Positions 17,507 through 46,863 of a stretch of DNA of 64,000 nt are shown here, piece by piece. Below the pieces are notes generated by a model. It was not told the origin of the DNA and made no database searches. It was given only the letters and a program-made list of their open reading frames with translations. Numbering within the stretch: the first letter of the stretch is position 1; the number at the start of each line of letters is the position of its first letter. The stretch is taken from contig NZ_JAKJHS010000003.1 in assembly GCF_021648825.1 (NCBI RefSeq), forward strand, positions 186,001-250,000, read 5' to 3'. This DNA is from Rhizobium halophilum. Lineage in GTDB: Bacteria; Pseudomonadota; Alphaproteobacteria; Rhizobiales; Rhizobiaceae. A program made the translations under genes and the position numbers.

Positions 17507-19594
17507 ATGCCGCAGCTTCACATCAACCCTGCCCTGATCGACTGGACCGGGCATGCGGGCCTGCCGCGCTTCGACCTGGTGAAGGACGAGGATTTTGCCG
17601 GCGCCTTCGACGCGGCGATGGCCAAGCACGACGCGGAGATCAACGACATCACCTGTGACCCGCGCGAGCCGACGATGGAAAACACCATCGTCGCATTGGA
17701 GATCGCCGGCGACGAGCTGTCTCGGATCTCGGCGCTGTTCTGGAACAAGGCGGGTGCCCATACCAACGAAGTGATCCAGGCACTGGAGCGGGAGATCGCG
17801 CCGAAGATGTCGCGGCACTATTCGAAGATCGCGATGAACGAGGCGCTGTTCAAGCGGGTCGACGATCTCTGGGAAAAACGCGATACGCTTGGTCTTTCGG
17901 TCGAGGAGGAGCGGGTTCTCGAGCGCCACTGGAAGGGTTTCGTACGCACGGGCGCGAAGCTTGCGAAGCCGGAACAGGAACGGCTGGCGGCGATCAATGA
18001 GAAGCTCGCAGGCCTTGGCGCCCAATTCGGGCAGAACGTGCTCGCCGACGAGAAGAGCTGGGAGCTTCATCTCTCGGAGGAGGCTGATCTTGCTGGCCTT
18101 CCTTCTTTCCTTAGAGATGCGATGGCCTCGGCCGCGCGGGATCGCGGACATGAGGATGGCTATGTGGTGACGCTGTCGCGTTCGATCATCGAGCCCTTCC
18201 TGACCTTTTCCGAGCGCCGGGACCTGCGCGAGCAGGCGTTCACCGCCTGGACCGCACGTGGCGCAAATGGCGGCGCGACGGACAATCTTGCGATCGTGAA
18301 GGAAACGCTGGCACTGCGCGCCGAGCGAGCCCAACTACTCAGCTATGACAGCTTTGCTGCCTTCAAGCTCGACAACACCATGGCGAAGACGCCGGAGGCG
18401 GTAAACCACTTGCTGATGACGGTCTGGGAGAAGGCACGGAACCGCGCTCTGGAAGAAGAGGCAAGCCTTGCCGGATTGATTGCGGAAGAGGGCGGCAATC
18501 ACGAGGTGATGCCCTGGGACTGGCGCTTTTATGCCGAGAAGCTGCGGCACCGCACTTTCAACTTCTCGGAATCCGAGCTGAAGCCTTACCTGCAGCTGGA
18601 AAAGATCATCGAGGCCTGCTTCGAAGTGGCAGGGCGGCTCTTCGGCATCCGGGCGATCGAAGTCAACGATGTGCCGGCCTATCACCCGGATGTGCGGGTT
18701 TTCGAGATCCGCGACGAGGACAACAACCTCAAGGCACTCTTCCTTGGCGACTATTTTGCCCGGTCCTCCAAGCGCTCCGGCGCTTGGATGAGCTCGTTCC
18801 AGTCGCAGCACAAGCTGGCGCTGAAGAACGGCCGGCAAGGCGAGATCCCGATCATCTACAATGTCTGCAACTTCGCCAAGCCCGCGGCGGGCAGGCCGGC
18901 ACTGCTGTCGCTCGACGATGCGCGCACCCTCTTCCACGAGTTCGGGCATGCGCTGCACGGCATGCTTTCGAACGTCACCTACCCGTCCGTCTCCGGGACG
19001 GGTGTCGCCCGCGATTTCGTCGAACTGCCCTCGCAGCTCTACGAGCACTGGCTCACGGTGCCGGAGATCCTCGAGAAATACGCGGTCCACTACGAGGCCG
19101 GCGAGCCGATGCCGAAGGCCTTGCTGGACAAGGTTCTGGCGGCGCGAACCTTCAATGCCGGCTTTGCCACGGTGGAGTTCACCTCCTCGGCCCTCGTCGA
19201 CATGGCCTTTCACACGCGTGGTGGAGTGGAGGATCCCATGGCGGTGCAGGCGCAGGTTCTGAAGGAGATACGCATGCCGCAGTCCATCGCCATGCGTCAT
19301 GCGACCCCGCATTTCCAGCACGTCTTCTCCGGCGACGGCTATTCGGCAGGCTACTATTCCTACATGTGGTCTGAAGTTCTCGATGCCGATGCCTTTGCGG
19401 CTTTCGAGGAGGTGGGTAACGCCTTCGACCCGGTCATGGCGCGCAAGCTGAAGAACAACATCTACTCGGTGGGTGGCTCCCTCGATCCCGAAGACGCCTA
19501 CAATGCCTTCCGCGGAAAGCTCCCTGATCCGGAAGCAATGTTGAAGAAGAAGGGTCTGGCGATGGTGGAGGAGCTGTCCGGCAGCGACGCTTGA
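17507..19594 (+). CDS. M3 family oligopeptidase (oligopeptidase A / dipeptidyl carboxypeptidase type)
   Basis: Zinc metallopeptidase of 695 residues that degrades short peptides in the cytoplasm. The zinc motif HEFGH is at residues 477-481 (RTLFHEFGHALHGML), with the third ligand Glu about 28 residues on (FVELPSQLYEHWL); substrate-binding GDGYSAGYYSYMWSEVLDAD lies near the C-terminus. This is characteristic of PrlC/Dcp enzymes. No signal peptide is seen at the chosen start (ATG 17507, MPQLHINPALIDW). An open frame extends to 17165 but crosses the divergent MFS gene and is not coding. Confidence 0.93.
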   Translation: MPQLHINPALIDWTGHAGLPRFDLVKDEDFAGAFDAAMAKHDAEINDITCDPREPTMENTIVALEIAGDELSRISALFWNKAGAHTNEVIQALEREIAPKMSRHYSKIAMNEALFKRVDDLWEKRDTLGLSVEEERVLERHWKGFVRTGAKLAKPEQERLAAINEKLAGLGAQFGQNVLADEKSWELHLSEEADLAGLPSFLRDAMASAARDRGHEDGYVVTLSRSIIEPFLTFSERRDLREQAFTAWTARGANGGATDNLAIVKETLALRAERAQLLSYDSFAAFKLDNTMAKTPEAVNHLLMTVWEKARNRALEEEASLAGLIAEEGGNHEVMPWDWRFYAEKLRHRTFNFSESELKPYLQLEKIIEACFEVAGRLFGIRAIEVNDVPAYHPDVRVFEIRDEDNNLKALFLGDYFARSSKRSGAWMSSFQSQHKLALKNGRQGEIPIIYNVCNFAKPAAGRPALLSLDDARTLFHEFGHALHGMLSNVTYPSVSGTGVARDFVELPSQLYEHWLTVPEILEKYAVHYEAGEPMPKALLDKVLAARTFNAGFATVEFTSSALVDMAFHTRGGVEDPMAVQAQVLKEIRMPQSIAMRHATPHFQHVFSGDGYSAGYYSYMWSEVLDADAFAAFEEVGNAFDPVMARKLKNNIYSVGGSLDPEDAYNAFRGKLPDPEAMLKKKGLAMVEELSGSDA

Positions 19595-32637: not shown

Positions 32638-34467
32638 TTGGCACCACCGATCCTTAAACTCGACGACATCCGACTAAGCTTTGGAGGGACGCCCCTTTTG
32701 GCGGGCGCTGGCCTGCAAGTGGAACTGGGGGACCGGATCTGCCTCGTCGGCCGCAACGGCTCCGGCAAGTCAACGCTGATGAAGATTGCGGCCGGCTTGG
32801 TTGAGCCGCAATCCGGCGAAGTGTTCCGTCATCCGGCGTCGACGATACGCTATCTGGAGCAGGCTCCCGACTTTGCAGGCCACACGACCGTGCAGGCCTA
32901 TGCCGAGGCCGGACTTGCGCCCGGAGATGACGCGTATAGGGTGACCTATCTGCTGGAGCATCTGGGGCTCACGGGTGAGGAGGATCCTGCCAGGCTTTCC
33001 GGTGGCGAGGCGCGACGCGCAGCGCTTGCCCGCGTCATGGCACCAGAGCCGGACATCCTGATGCTCGATGAGCCGACCAATCATCTCGATCTGCCGACGA
33101 TCGAGTGGCTGGAAGAGGAACTCAGGAAGACCCGCAGTGCGCTCGTTCTGATCTCGCACGACCGGCGTTTCCTGGAAAAGGTCTCCACTGCGACCGTCTG
33201 GCTCGATCGCGGCGTCTCACGCCGCCTCGACCGCGGCTTCGGCCATTTCGAAAGCTGGCGGGACGAGGTGCTGGAAGCAGAGGAGCTGGAGCAGCACAAA
33301 CTCGGCAAGGCAATCGAGCGCGAGGAACACTGGTTGCGTTACGGGGTGACGGCACGACGCAAACGCAATGTACGCCGCCTCGGGGAACTACAGACAATGC
33401 GCTCGGCTTATCGTGGCCACCAGGGTCCGCAGGGGTCGGTACAGGCAAAGGTTTCCGAGGCGCAGGAATCGGGGAAATTGGTCATTGAGGCCGAAGCAAT
33501 CACGAAGAGCTATGAAGGCCGGGCGATCGTTTCTTCCTTCTCGATGCGCGTTCATCGGGGTGACCGGATCGGTTTGGTCGGTCCGAACGGCGCCGGCAAG
33601 ACGACTTTGTTGAAGATGCTGATCGGAGAGCTTGAACCGGACTCCGGCACGGTCGGGCTGGGGACCAATCTCGACATCGCGACGCTGGATCAGAAACGCG
33701 AAGACCTGAACCCCGAAGACACGCTATCCCATTACCTGACAGATGGACGAGGCGAGACGCTGCTGGTCAACGGTGAGCAACGTCATGTGGCCGGCTACAT
33801 GAAGGACTTCTTGTTCCAGCCGGAGCAGATCCGAACCCCGATCAAGAACCTCTCGGGCGGCGAACGGGCAAGGCTGATGCTGGCGCGCATCATGGCCAAG
33901 CCCTCAAACCTCCTGATCCTTGACGAGCCGACCAACGATCTCGACCTAGAAACGCTAGATCTCTTGCAGGAGATCGTGTCGGGCTACAACGGTACCGTCA
34001 TCCTTGTCAGCCACGACCGCGACTTCCTGGATCGCACCGTAACCTCCACACTTGCTCCCGCCAGTCCCGAGACACCCGACGGTCGCTGGATCGAATATGC
34101 CGGTGGCTATTCTGACATGCTAACGCAACGCAAGGGGGCCCAGGACGAACGGCGGCGACTGGGAAAACAGGAGAAATCGCGGTCGGATGCAACACCCACC
34201 GCCCCCGAAGCTGGGAAGAACAAGAGCAAGCTCTCGTTCAAGCAGAAGTTCGCGCTGGAGAATCTCCCTCAGGAGATGGCAAAGGCGGAGGCGGATATTG
34301 CAGCACGGGAACAGAAAATGGCGGACCCGGCTCTCTTCACAAAGGATCCCACAGGCTTCAACAGGCTCGCCAAGGAGTTGGAGAAGCTGCGCGAAGATCT
34401 GACGCGAATGGAAGAGGAATGGCTGGAACTGGAGATGCTGCGCGAAGAGATCGAGGGAGCGGGTTAA
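32638..34467 (+). CDS. ABC-F family ATPase (Uup-like)
   Basis: Soluble duplicated ABC protein of 609 residues without membrane segments. The first module has Walker A GRNGSGKST near residue 39 and LSGGEARRAALARVM near 121; the second has GPNGAGKTT near 315 and LSGGERARLMLARIM. The linker and a highly charged C-terminal coiled coil (about residues 515-609) match Uup, which acts on translating ribosomes or branched DNA. The start is TTG 32638, placed just after the thiN stop, implying translational coupling. Confidence 0.9.
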   Translation: MAPPILKLDDIRLSFGGTPLLAGAGLQVELGDRICLVGRNGSGKSTLMKIAAGLVEPQSGEVFRHPASTIRYLEQAPDFAGHTTVQAYAEAGLAPGDDAYRVTYLLEHLGLTGEEDPARLSGGEARRAALARVMAPEPDILMLDEPTNHLDLPTIEWLEEELRKTRSALVLISHDRRFLEKVSTATVWLDRGVSRRLDRGFGHFESWRDEVLEAEELEQHKLGKAIEREEHWLRYGVTARRKRNVRRLGELQTMRSAYRGHQGPQGSVQAKVSEAQESGKLVIEAEAITKSYEGRAIVSSFSMRVHRGDRIGLVGPNGAGKTTLLKMLIGELEPDSGTVGLGTNLDIATLDQKREDLNPEDTLSHYLTDGRGETLLVNGEQRHVAGYMKDFLFQPEQIRTPIKNLSGGERARLMLARIMAKPSNLLILDEPTNDLDLETLDLLQEIVSGYNGTVILVSHDRDFLDRTVTSTLAPASPETPDGRWIEYAGGYSDMLTQRKGAQDERRRLGKQEKSRSDATPTAPEAGKNKSKLSFKQKFALENLPQEMAKAEADIAAREQKMADPALFTKDPTGFNRLAKELEKLREDLTRMEEEWLELEMLREEIEGAG

Positions 34468-34517: not shown

Positions 34518-34542
34518 GGAACATTAGCTGCAGACCCTCGTT
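34518..34542 (+). promoter_or_regulatory. RpoE2/EcfG-type general-stress promoter for the response regulator
   Basis: GGAAC at 34518-34522 and CGTT at 34539-34542 with exactly 16 bp between, the alphaproteobacterial general-stress consensus. It lies 67 bp before the ATG at 34610. Confidence 0.8.
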
Positions 34543-34609
34543 CGGTGACCAGTGCCATTCTGATACAACAGAACCGCACGACGCAGCAAACCCGCAGGAG
34601 AGGTTTCAC

Positions 34610-35059
34610 ATGCTGGCAAATGTATCGAGTCGTCGGCTTTCCCCGCAACCGCCGGAGCAGCGTATTCTCATCGTTGAAGACGAATTCCTTATTGCGTTGG
34701 ATGTTGCCGACACTGTCGAGGCGATGGGCCTTCAGGTGGCCGGTCTTGCCAGCGGACGAAGCCACGCGCTGGCACTGGCGCAGGCCGCGGATATCGCCTT
34801 CGTCGACGTCAACCTCGCCGACGGGCGCACCGGACCGGCTTTGGGGCAGGAGTTGGCGAGCAAGTACGGCCTGACGGTCATCTACATGACGGCGAATCCC
34901 GAGGAAGTGGAGAGGATCGCAACCGGGCCGCTGGGCGTGCTGACGAAGCCTGTCATGCCGCATGTCGTAGAACAATCGATCGGTTACGCGGTTGCCAGCC
35001 GAATGGGCGGCATCGCCCCTGTCCCACGCGAACTGCGCGTGTTCCAACGTCCCCACTAG
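34610..35059 (+). CDS. Single-domain response regulator (CheY-like receiver)
   Basis: Receiver-only protein of 149 residues with no output domain. All phosphorylation residues are present: the acidic triad in VEDE (23-25), the phospho-acceptor D66 in AFVDVNLAD, T94 in YMTAN and K113 in LTKPVMP. About 15 extra residues precede the fold. It has no adjacent histidine kinase. The general-stress promoter directly upstream suggests it is induced by RpoE2 and could tune the stress phosphorelay, as known single-domain regulators do in other alphaproteobacteria; that role is inference. Confidence 0.9.
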   Translation: MLANVSSRRLSPQPPEQRILIVEDEFLIALDVADTVEAMGLQVAGLASGRSHALALAQAADIAFVDVNLADGRTGPALGQELASKYGLTVIYMTANPEEVERIATGPLGVLTKPVMPHVVEQSIGYAVASRMGGIAPVPRELRVFQRPH

Positions 35060-35111: not shown

Positions 35112-35208
35112 GAGCCGATCTAACGGGGTGCCGCTCGATGCGGCTGAGAGGCGATGCCAACCCGCGGAACCTGATCCGGCTAAGACCGGCGGAGGGATTA
35201 GACGGCTC
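35112..35208 (+). ncRNA. TPP riboswitch (THI element) controlling thiBPQ
   Basis: The canonical TPP aptamer is visible: GGGGTGC at 35125-35131, the CTGAGA core at 35143-35148, then AACCTGATCCGG and the 3' GGCGGAGGGA. The P1 stem is unusually easy to see: GAGCCG-A-TCTAA (35112-35123) pairs with TTAGACGGCTC (35198-35208), eleven pairs with one bulged A. It lies 45 bp ahead of the thiB ATG. With TPP bound it should repress import genes, probably at translation in this group. Confidence 0.95.
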
Positions 35209-35253
35209 CTGATTCACGCCGACCTCCCTCTTCAAGCAATGTGTGGAGGCGCA

Positions 35254-40344: not shown

Positions 40345-41208
40345 TCAACCTACGACCGCCATTTGCGGATTTGCCGAAACAAGTGCGGATTTCAGCTTTT
40401 CGATCGCGCGGCTTTCGATCTGCCGCACACGCTCCTTAGAGATCCCGAGTTCCGCACCCAGTGCCTCAAGCGTTGCACCGTCGTCCGTAAGGCGGCGAGC
40501 TCGAATGATCTTCTTCTCCCGCTCGTTCAGCTTTGTGAGAGCGCCTTGTAGCCAACGGAGGCGTCTTTCGCCATCGATCATTCCGGACACCTGTTCATCT
40601 GGCAAGGGTTCGGCACTAGCGAGAAGATCGAGCCGCTCACCACTGTCGGAGTCGCCCGCAATAGACGGTGCTTGCAAGGATGCGTCATTGCCAGAGAGTC
40701 GGGCGTCCATCGTCTGAACGTCAGCAACACTCACTCCAAGCGCTGCTGCAATCTCTTCATGGATGGCGCGTGAGGTCAGATTGCTGTCACCGCGCGCAAG
40801 CTTCGCACGCAGGCGGCGCAGATTGAAGAAAAGCGCCTTCTGGGCCGAGCTGGTGCCGCCACGCACGATCGACCAGTTGCGTAGGATATAATCTTGCATC
40901 GATGCGCGTATCCACCAGCTGGCATAGGTGGAAAAACGAACATCCCGCGCCGGTTCAAATCTTGCCGCAGCCTCGAGAAGCCCTACGTAGCCCTCTTGTA
41001 CAAGATCGCTCATCGGCAGCCCGAAGCCACGGAACTTGGACGCCATGGCAATCACCAACCGCATGTGGGCGAGCGCGATCTGGTTGCGCGCATCCTGGTC
41101 CTGATCGTCTTTCCAGCGGACCGCAAGATCCCGTTCCTCCTCGCGTGCGAGATACGGAGCAGACATAGCGATTTTGATCATATTGCGGTCGGCGGACATG
41201 GCTTTCAT
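40345..41208 (-). CDS. rpoH2: RNA polymerase sigma factor RpoH2 (sigma-32 family)
   Basis: Sigma-32 type factor of 287 residues. Region 2 contains ALAHMRLVIAMASKFRGFG, the core-binding DLVQEGYVGLLEAAARF and FSTYASWWIRASMQDYIL; region 4 has the helix-turn-helix TLEALGAELGISKERVRQIESRAIEKL. The divergence of the RpoH box and the size favour RpoH2 over RpoH1, in line with its neighbours. The start at 41208 has GGAGAACACA upstream. A perfect RpoE2-type promoter lies 194 bp upstream on this strand, leaving a long leader of about 185 nt. In S. meliloti rpoH2 is known to be RpoE2-dependent. Confidence 0.92.
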   Translation of the reverse strand: MKAMSADRNMIKIAMSAPYLAREEERDLAVRWKDDQDQDARNQIALAHMRLVIAMASKFRGFGLPMSDLVQEGYVGLLEAAARFEPARDVRFSTYASWWIRASMQDYILRNWSIVRGGTSSAQKALFFNLRRLRAKLARGDSNLTSRAIHEEIAAALGVSVADVQTMDARLSGNDASLQAPSIAGDSDSGERLDLLASAEPLPDEQVSGMIDGERRLRWLQGALTKLNEREKKIIRARRLTDDGATLEALGAELGISKERVRQIESRAIEKLKSALVSANPQMAVVG

Positions 41209-41401
41209 TGTGTTCTCCGTGAGCTTTGGGAACTCTGCAAGGCAACGCGCCACCTTCTCGCCAAGTGGCACAAACTACATTTCCTTGCTTGGTCCCCTTT
41301 TTGTTCCCCGAGCACTTGCCCTATCCAGGCCGCTCTCTATCTCTGATGGTAACCTCAAAAAATATTCTGACCGGCAGAAATGTTCGCCGTTCCGGCGGGT
41401 T

Positions 41402-41426
41402 AACGTCCGACAAAGAAAATGGTTCC
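41402..41426 (-). promoter_or_regulatory. RpoE2/EcfG-type general-stress promoter for rpoH2
   Basis: Read on the minus strand: GGAAC at 41426-41422 and CGTT at 41405-41402 with 16 bp between. It lies 194 bp from the rpoH2 start and overlaps no gene; the carD terminator is immediately upstream. Confidence 0.85.
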
Positions 41427-46639: not shown

Positions 46640-46664
46640 GGAACCAAACGGAAGAAGAAGCGTT
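46640..46664 (+). promoter_or_regulatory. RpoE2/EcfG-type general-stress promoter for the DUF3309 gene
   Basis: GGAAC at 46640-46644 and CGTT at 46661-46664 with 16 bp between, 43 bp before the ATG at 46708. The rest of the 46396-46707 region, which is also upstream of the helicase, shows no other recognised element. Confidence 0.85.
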
Positions 46665-46707: not shown

Positions 46708-46863
46708 ATGCTCGGAACGGTGTTGCTGGTCGTCCTCATCCTGCTCCTGATTGGCGCTTTGCCGAATTGGGGCTACAGCCGCGGATGGGGCTATGGGCCA
46801 TCGGGAGGACTTGGACTGGTCCTCGTCATCGTCATCATCCTCCTGCTCATGGGCAGGTTCTAA
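46708..46863 (+). CDS. DUF3309 family small membrane protein
   Basis: Tiny protein of 51 residues with two hydrophobic segments (LGTVLLVVLILLLIGALP and GLGLVLVIVIILLLMGRF) around a Gly/Tyr/Trp-rich turn, the DUF3309 pattern. Function unknown; members are common in general-stress regulons. It is preceded by a perfect GGAAC-N16-CGTT promoter and followed 33 bp later by a glycine-zipper lipoprotein gene, with which it is probably cotranscribed. The frame is open upstream to 46630, but that would cross the promoter. Confidence 0.85.
   Translation: MLGTVLLVVLILLLIGALPNWGYSRGWGYGPSGGLGLVLVIVIILLLMGRF

Follow-up and report, generated by a model that had tools for sequence, protein, structure and literature searches.

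To our knowledge, the switching off of the stress response and the sharing of one PhyR by many HWE/HisKA2 kinases are known mainly from Caulobacter and Sphingomonas. In Caulobacter, the single-domain regulator LovR is under the control of SigT, forms an operon with the kinase LovK and acts with it as a phosphate sink in vitro, and it has been proposed to give negative feedback (excerpts of PMC5964349). According to the portions of PMC6599016 that we draw on, EcfG control extends, after exposure to a stress mix, to PkrB and a second single-domain regulator of Sphingomonas melonis, and EcfG-controlled feedback in this organism includes NepR2. A motif called FATGUY is carried by MrrA, SdrG, Mext_0407 and Sma0114; the first two are phosphorylated by HWE/HisKA2 kinases, and these two and Mext_0407 have roles in the general stress response (PMC5964349, in part). 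In Rhizobium etli CFN42, the motif of EcfG1 was determined as GGAAC-N16-CGTT (excerpt of PMC3892343), and tiling arrays of ecfG1, ecfG2 and double mutants exist for this strain.

The whole stretch of DNA analysed here, a window of 64 kb (C23:186001-250000), contains a gene that can be compared by description with these systems. Like LovR, its product is a single-domain receiver under EcfG-class control, in our case as read from the promoter sequence only, and it resembles PkrB of S. melonis Fr1, a single-domain regulator under EcfG control (PMC6599016, in part). However, the window gene has no adjacent LOV/HWE kinase of the LovK kind, and while PkrB is associated with the kinase PakB, no kinase is found near the window receiver. 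With MrrA, SdrG, Mext_0407 and Sma0114 it shares the single-domain architecture but not the FATGUY motif. The initial annotation considered that a connection of this gene to the stress pathway would be new. This holds for the present family but not in kind, LovR and the S. melonis regulators being precedents (excerpts of PMC5964349 and PMC6599016). We found no publication on this receiver family in the openly licensed literature, and the family seems not yet to have been studied; supplementary tables may list the gene as an EcfG target. What is new is a single-domain regulator behind an EcfG promoter that resembles PhyR, is an orphan and occurs in all congeners examined. It is also found in many Rhizobium genomes, and the promoter-linked receiver is a specific candidate, simple to delete, for feedback control in soil bacteria and root symbionts.

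The gene, its promoter and their conservation

The features of the window are listed in Table 1. The perfect GGAAC-N16-CGTT element described in the initial annotation lies exactly where it had been placed, with 67 bases between CGTT and the ATG, and it is preceded by a C and followed by an A as in nearly all orthologues. The upstream neighbour reads as an ABC-F-type ATPase ORF ending at 34467, the downstream neighbour as a thiamine-type ABC transporter operon, both names being our readings of the sequence.

Table 1. Coordinates of the receiver gene and of other features in the 64-kb window
Feature	Position	Strand	Basis
EcfG-type promoter GGAAC-N16-CGTT	34518..34542	+	sequence, orthologue comparison, published R. 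etli motif (PMC3892343, excerpt)
GGAAC box	34518..34522	+	
CGTT box, after a spacer of 16 bases	34539..34542	+	
AGGAG, plausible ribosome-binding site	34596..34600	+	by eye from sequence
149-aa single-domain response regulator, PhyR-receiver type, NCBIfam NF009972 (PRK13435.1-3)	34610..35059	+	ATG at 34610, stop codon ends at 35059
D66 codon, predicted phosphoryl acceptor	34805..34807	+	invariant in 45 aligned sequences
TPP riboswitch, precedes the ABC transporter genes	35114..35214	+	Rfam RF00059, 71.8 bits
Sigma-32 factor	40345..41271	-	NF005693, 485 bits
Second strict N16 site, upstream of the sigma-32 factor	41426..41402	-	
Third strict N16 site, 43 bases before the 51-aa ORF	46640..46664	+	
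51-aa hydrophobic ORF	46708..46863	+	start codon chosen by us

A motif match in a single genome was rejected as proof of a promoter, because the counts do not stand out from chance: the strict N16 motif, with 76 sites in this genome, is barely above its reversed pattern with 61, while the N15-18 motif gives 198 sites and its reversed pattern 321. One match thus proves little and the case rests on the orthologues, which were picked by protein similarity only (80 kept of 102 relatives found). A strict site located between -155 and -60 is present in 78 of these 80 wider relatives, with a spacer of N16 in 74 and N17 in 4; only L063 and L088 depart from this, with one-mismatch sites. The background is very different: in the 513,158 bases of the 80 loci only 3 further strict N16/N17 sites are found elsewhere on the plus strand and 2 on the minus strand, and widening the spacer to N15/N18 adds 2 plus-strand and 31 minus-strand sites, the latter all N15.

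The same picture is obtained within the genus, where the receiver gene was detected in 57/57 genomes (E 1e-30) and the strict promoter in 56 of them (counting the best copy in 56 genomes, and G204 examined as L144); the remaining one, L207, carries GGAAC-N16-CGGT, a single mismatch. The flanking C and A were not used in selecting the strict sites, and still a C precedes GGAAC in 53 of 55 strict congener sites and an A follows in all 55. Second copies of the gene behave differently, L256 (46% identity) being without a site and L257 (50% identity) having one with a mismatch. The R. etli CFN42 orthologue, RHE_RS24090 at 18952-19392 of p42e, has a strict N16 site 78 bp before its ATG. By comparison, we examined six further receiver-only genes of the window's own genome, and none has a strict site upstream. 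The conservation across orthologues is far beyond chance, and orthologues lacking the promoter, which the initial annotation had named as grounds for abandoning the idea, are accordingly rare. Judged from these comparisons, the link of the promoter to the EcfG pathway is strongly supported, and we infer that the gene would be transcribed by EcfG.

The genomic setting is less constant than the promoter. The ABC-F-type gene lies upstream of the receiver gene in the window, as it does in 17 of the 80 loci; among the remaining 63, the receiver gene is near a second common gene (an alpha-2-macroglobulin-family gene in the R. johnstonii record and likewise in R. etli) in 57 and near neither in 6. 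Downstream genes vary among the loci, no single neighbour is common to all 80 neighbourhoods, and the promoter is retained in both upstream settings. To judge from this gene order, promoter and receiver are a self-contained unit that moves as one.

In two of the loci the reading frame is interrupted and the promoter kept. In Rhizobium sp. R634 (L045:3001) the frame stops 8 codons after the start of the match, in Aliirhizobium terrae (L084:3001-3437) after 87 codons; these copies have possibly decayed or contain sequencing errors.

A free-standing receiver of the PhyR type

As noted in the initial annotation, the protein is receiver-only and has all the phosphorylation residues. Pfam PF00072 covers residues 19-120 of the 149 with no other recognisable part, and E23, D24, D66, T94 and K113 are each invariant in 45 aligned sequences. 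It belongs to NCBIfam NF009972, matching with 176.1 bits over residues 1-146 where the curated whole-protein cut-off is 119 bits. The PhyR model NF006623 comes next (E 1.5e-21 on the receiver part, below the whole-protein cut-off of that model), and the best paralogue in its own genome is PhyR, with 35% identity over residues 4-128. In a sequence search of the PDB, ranks 1-8 are all PhyR proteins, followed at rank 9 by 2lpm, which we take to be Sma0114, and at rank 14 by SdrG. Entry 2n9u had been considered as a LovR structure and was discarded, since it is the PhyR receiver of E. litoralis. A model predicted with 45 family sequences (mean pLDDT 87.0, pTM 0.82) shows a receiver fold in which helix 4 is not clear, and the ten PDB chains that rank highest in the fold comparison all belong to PhyR (six entries); since TM-scores alone do not separate PhyR from ordinary receivers, this ranking partly reflects sequence.

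The resemblance to the PhyR receiver thus extends over the best sequence matches, the best-ranked fold matches, the E-D/D/T/K active site and a mostly aliphatic residue three positions before the Lys. However, PhyR has an N-terminal sigma-like output domain, and the window protein, which lacks it, is therefore not a PhyR; nor is its gene located at the phyR-nepR-ecfG locus. Two positions after the acceptor Asp the window protein has N while 17 of 21 PhyR-type rows have Q, and two after the Thr the orphan family has mostly N where 19 of 21 PhyR-type rows have F or Y. PhyR-type is used here for rows with a receiver beyond residue 100 of an open frame longer than 230 aa; among them, the NCBIfam PhyR cut-off is passed for PhyR of this genome. 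These two positions were rejected as a signature of the orphan family because a sister clade is mostly N/N as well. By sequence and predicted fold the window protein is a PhyR-type receiver, and the clade of such free-standing receivers is Rhizobiaceae-centred. The interpretation in terms of the EcfG pathway put forward in the initial annotation is thereby borne out in part, namely by the conserved promoter of the orthologues and by PhyR receivers as nearest solved relatives.

That the best-ranked solved structures are PhyR receivers would also be compatible with a decoy, a free receiver that pairs with the receiver or the sigma-like domain of PhyR and blocks NepR capture with no need for a phosphate drain. 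PhyR itself works via contacts between its own receiver and its sigma-like domain, which would favour such pairing. Yet mean identity to PhyR-type receivers is only ~34% over the domain, and we regard this arrangement as quite improbable.

Membership in the FATGUY group of MrrA and SdrG, defined by PFxFATG(G/Y), was rejected: the window protein has IYMTANPEE at this site, and the FATGUY receivers of its own genome branch apart. This bears on the possibility of a positive relay, in which the receiver would collect phosphoryl groups from several HWE/HisKA2 kinases and pass them via a PhyT-like phosphotransferase to PhyR, the EcfG promoter closing a positive loop. The relays SdrG-PhyT-PhyR and MrrA-PhyK-PhyR are known in related bacteria (excerpts of PMC5898713 and PMC5964349), and a 337-aa HWE-type kinase adjoins phyR in this genome. 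On the other hand, the motif that marks MrrA and SdrG is missing from the window receiver, and the genome has better candidates in its own FATGUY-like receivers (C13:27667-28050 and C22:3677-4306). The tree places the window receiver outside these, with the reservation that they form long branches. A relay of this kind appears unlikely.

Beyond the receiver fold there is a conserved C-terminal tail (residues ~138-146, consensus VPxxxxVF). The ABC-F-linked group has it, as do many Rhizobium orthologues, whereas others lack it.

A tail conserved past the fold in many orthologues could serve an output function, the phosphorylated receiver binding a target outside the core pathway, for instance in motility, biofilm or envelope, so that its production by EcfG would tie stress to other behaviour. 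Indeed, effects on motility and biofilm genes are also known for SdrG of S. melonis, and effects on attachment for LovK/LovR of Caulobacter (PMC6599016 and PMC5964349, in part). However, part of the clade does without the tail and no neighbour gene accompanies the receiver in all neighbourhoods, which makes this reading about as doubtful as the relay.

Kinases and the possible role of the receiver

The absence of a partner kinase nearby, also pointed out in the initial annotation, is confirmed by profile searches. None of the 58 HATPase_c matches of the genome falls within the window, the nearest one on contig C23 being ~118 kb away from it, and none of its 14 HWE and 11 HisKA_2 matches is on this contig. 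No HWE kinase was found in the window or in the 80 related loci with their 3-kb flanks.

The situation is different in the sister clade, which belongs to the same NCBI subfamily (NF009972) and has the same active-site residues at ~40-47% identity. NF009972 members over the cut-off occur in 34 of 247 genomes of the GTDB family and in 4 of 387 across the class; being present in all congeners and in few family genomes, the gene is therefore genus-wide rather than family-wide. Among the 30 best family census loci (L141-L170; flanks of 1.5 kb in census loci), 12 have an HWE kinase tail-to-tail with the receiver (L155, L157-L161, L164-L168, L170), and of 28 loci beyond the family, 4 (L171-L174) have an HWE kinase beside it on the same strand. 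This neighbouring kinase distinguishes the sister clade from the window copy, which has no dedicated one, and we consider the sister receivers, of this NCBI subfamily or close to it, and their HWE kinases a candidate two-component pair. Since the kinase adjoins the sister receivers, this type of receiver goes with HWE kinases. Of the 34 genomes over the NF009972 cut-off, which the search covered, 23 have an orthologue of the sister kinase (at least 430 bits); it is absent here, where the best match, as in ten further genomes, reaches at most 171 bits. In the one sister kinase scanned, PAS domains were called. The LOV motif N-C/S-R-F/V-L/M-Q was not found in the parts of 12 sister kinases inside the loci; these kinases extend past the loci (open frames of ~640 aa and more) and a LOV domain further upstream is possible. 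A class-wide search with a blue-light kinase model matched a single one of 387 genomes (E 1e-100) and turned up no LovR.

The promoter does not cleanly split the two sides and is not exclusive to the orphan one. A strict site is present in 14 of the 30 census loci, 10/14 on the orphan side and 4/16 on the sister side (L155, L157, L158 and L169, some of them oddly placed), while L143 and L152-L154 of the orphan side have only one-mismatch sites. In a tree of 79 receivers (near-duplicates L141, L142, L148, L149 and L150 dropped, 17 of 45 A1 rows used, 12 rows ungrouped), the kinase-neighbour group and the promoter group require one change each; support is modest, 81/85 for the former and a weak 74/15 for the promoter clade, and 19 of the 21 PhyR-type rows form a separate clade.

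Which kinases might serve the orphan receivers was approached through helix alpha-1, where we take positions 27, 28, 31 and 35 to be specificity-determining. At these positions, 0.49 of the pairs between the orphan clade and PhyR-type receivers agree, compared with 0.06 for pairs of the orphan clade and the sister clade, a difference reached by random position sets in 0.2% of draws; the value is 1.1% for a five-position set and 5.7% for the whole helix. A first residue set had been picked after the residue table was seen, and rows L173 and L174 of the kinase group and L175, L176 and L193 of the PhyR group were dropped. The comparison is only suggestive of a kinase specificity of the orphan clade like that of PhyR.

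In the reading that we prefer, with a probability of roughly 0.45, the orphan PhyR-type receiver is induced by EcfG and damps PhyR by draining phosphoryl groups from HWE/HisKA2 kinases, giving LovR-like feedback without a LovK. Stress would free EcfG and the receiver would be made; its D66 would accept phosphoryl groups from the HWE/HisKA2 kinases that feed PhyR, or from the HWE-type kinase adjacent to phyR, and the receiver would lose them again. Competition with PhyR could then shorten or limit PhyR activation, so that the response is damped or reset or the flow rerouted. Phosphorylation by these kinases, competition with PhyR and the negative sign are all inferred, and by analogy with the described systems it is plausible that the receiver serves as a phosphate sink or in feedback. 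An opposite sign is conceivable, because SdrG and MrrA, the single-domain regulators of this pathway studied in most detail, are positive relays (PMC5898713 and PMC5964349, in part). Brake or relay, the receiver is probably a built-in part of the stress response.

Further EcfG-type sites in the window and the genome

Further strict sites in the window and the genome serve as positive controls for the motif. All three strict sites of the window have an N16 spacer, none having N17, and one of the three is that of the receiver gene. The sigma-32 gene behind the second site is likely rpoH2 under EcfG control; the EcfG1 regulon of R. etli includes rpoH2 (excerpt of PMC3892343). The small ORF behind the third site has no NCBIfam match at E 1e-5. 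Elsewhere in the genome, strict sites are found upstream of phyR (C1:686478-687272, minus strand) and of a second sigma gene (C1:722700-723206, minus strand), which we read as EcfG-like. Adjoining ecfG is a 143-aa receiver-like ORF on the minus strand (L131:6178-6609, corresponding to G000:C1:688177-688608). Its acidic pair is degenerate (VDREY), it matches no NCBIfam model at E 1e-5, and a strict EcfG site is missing within 300 bp; to judge by its position and sequence, it may represent a further small regulator belonging to the stress locus.
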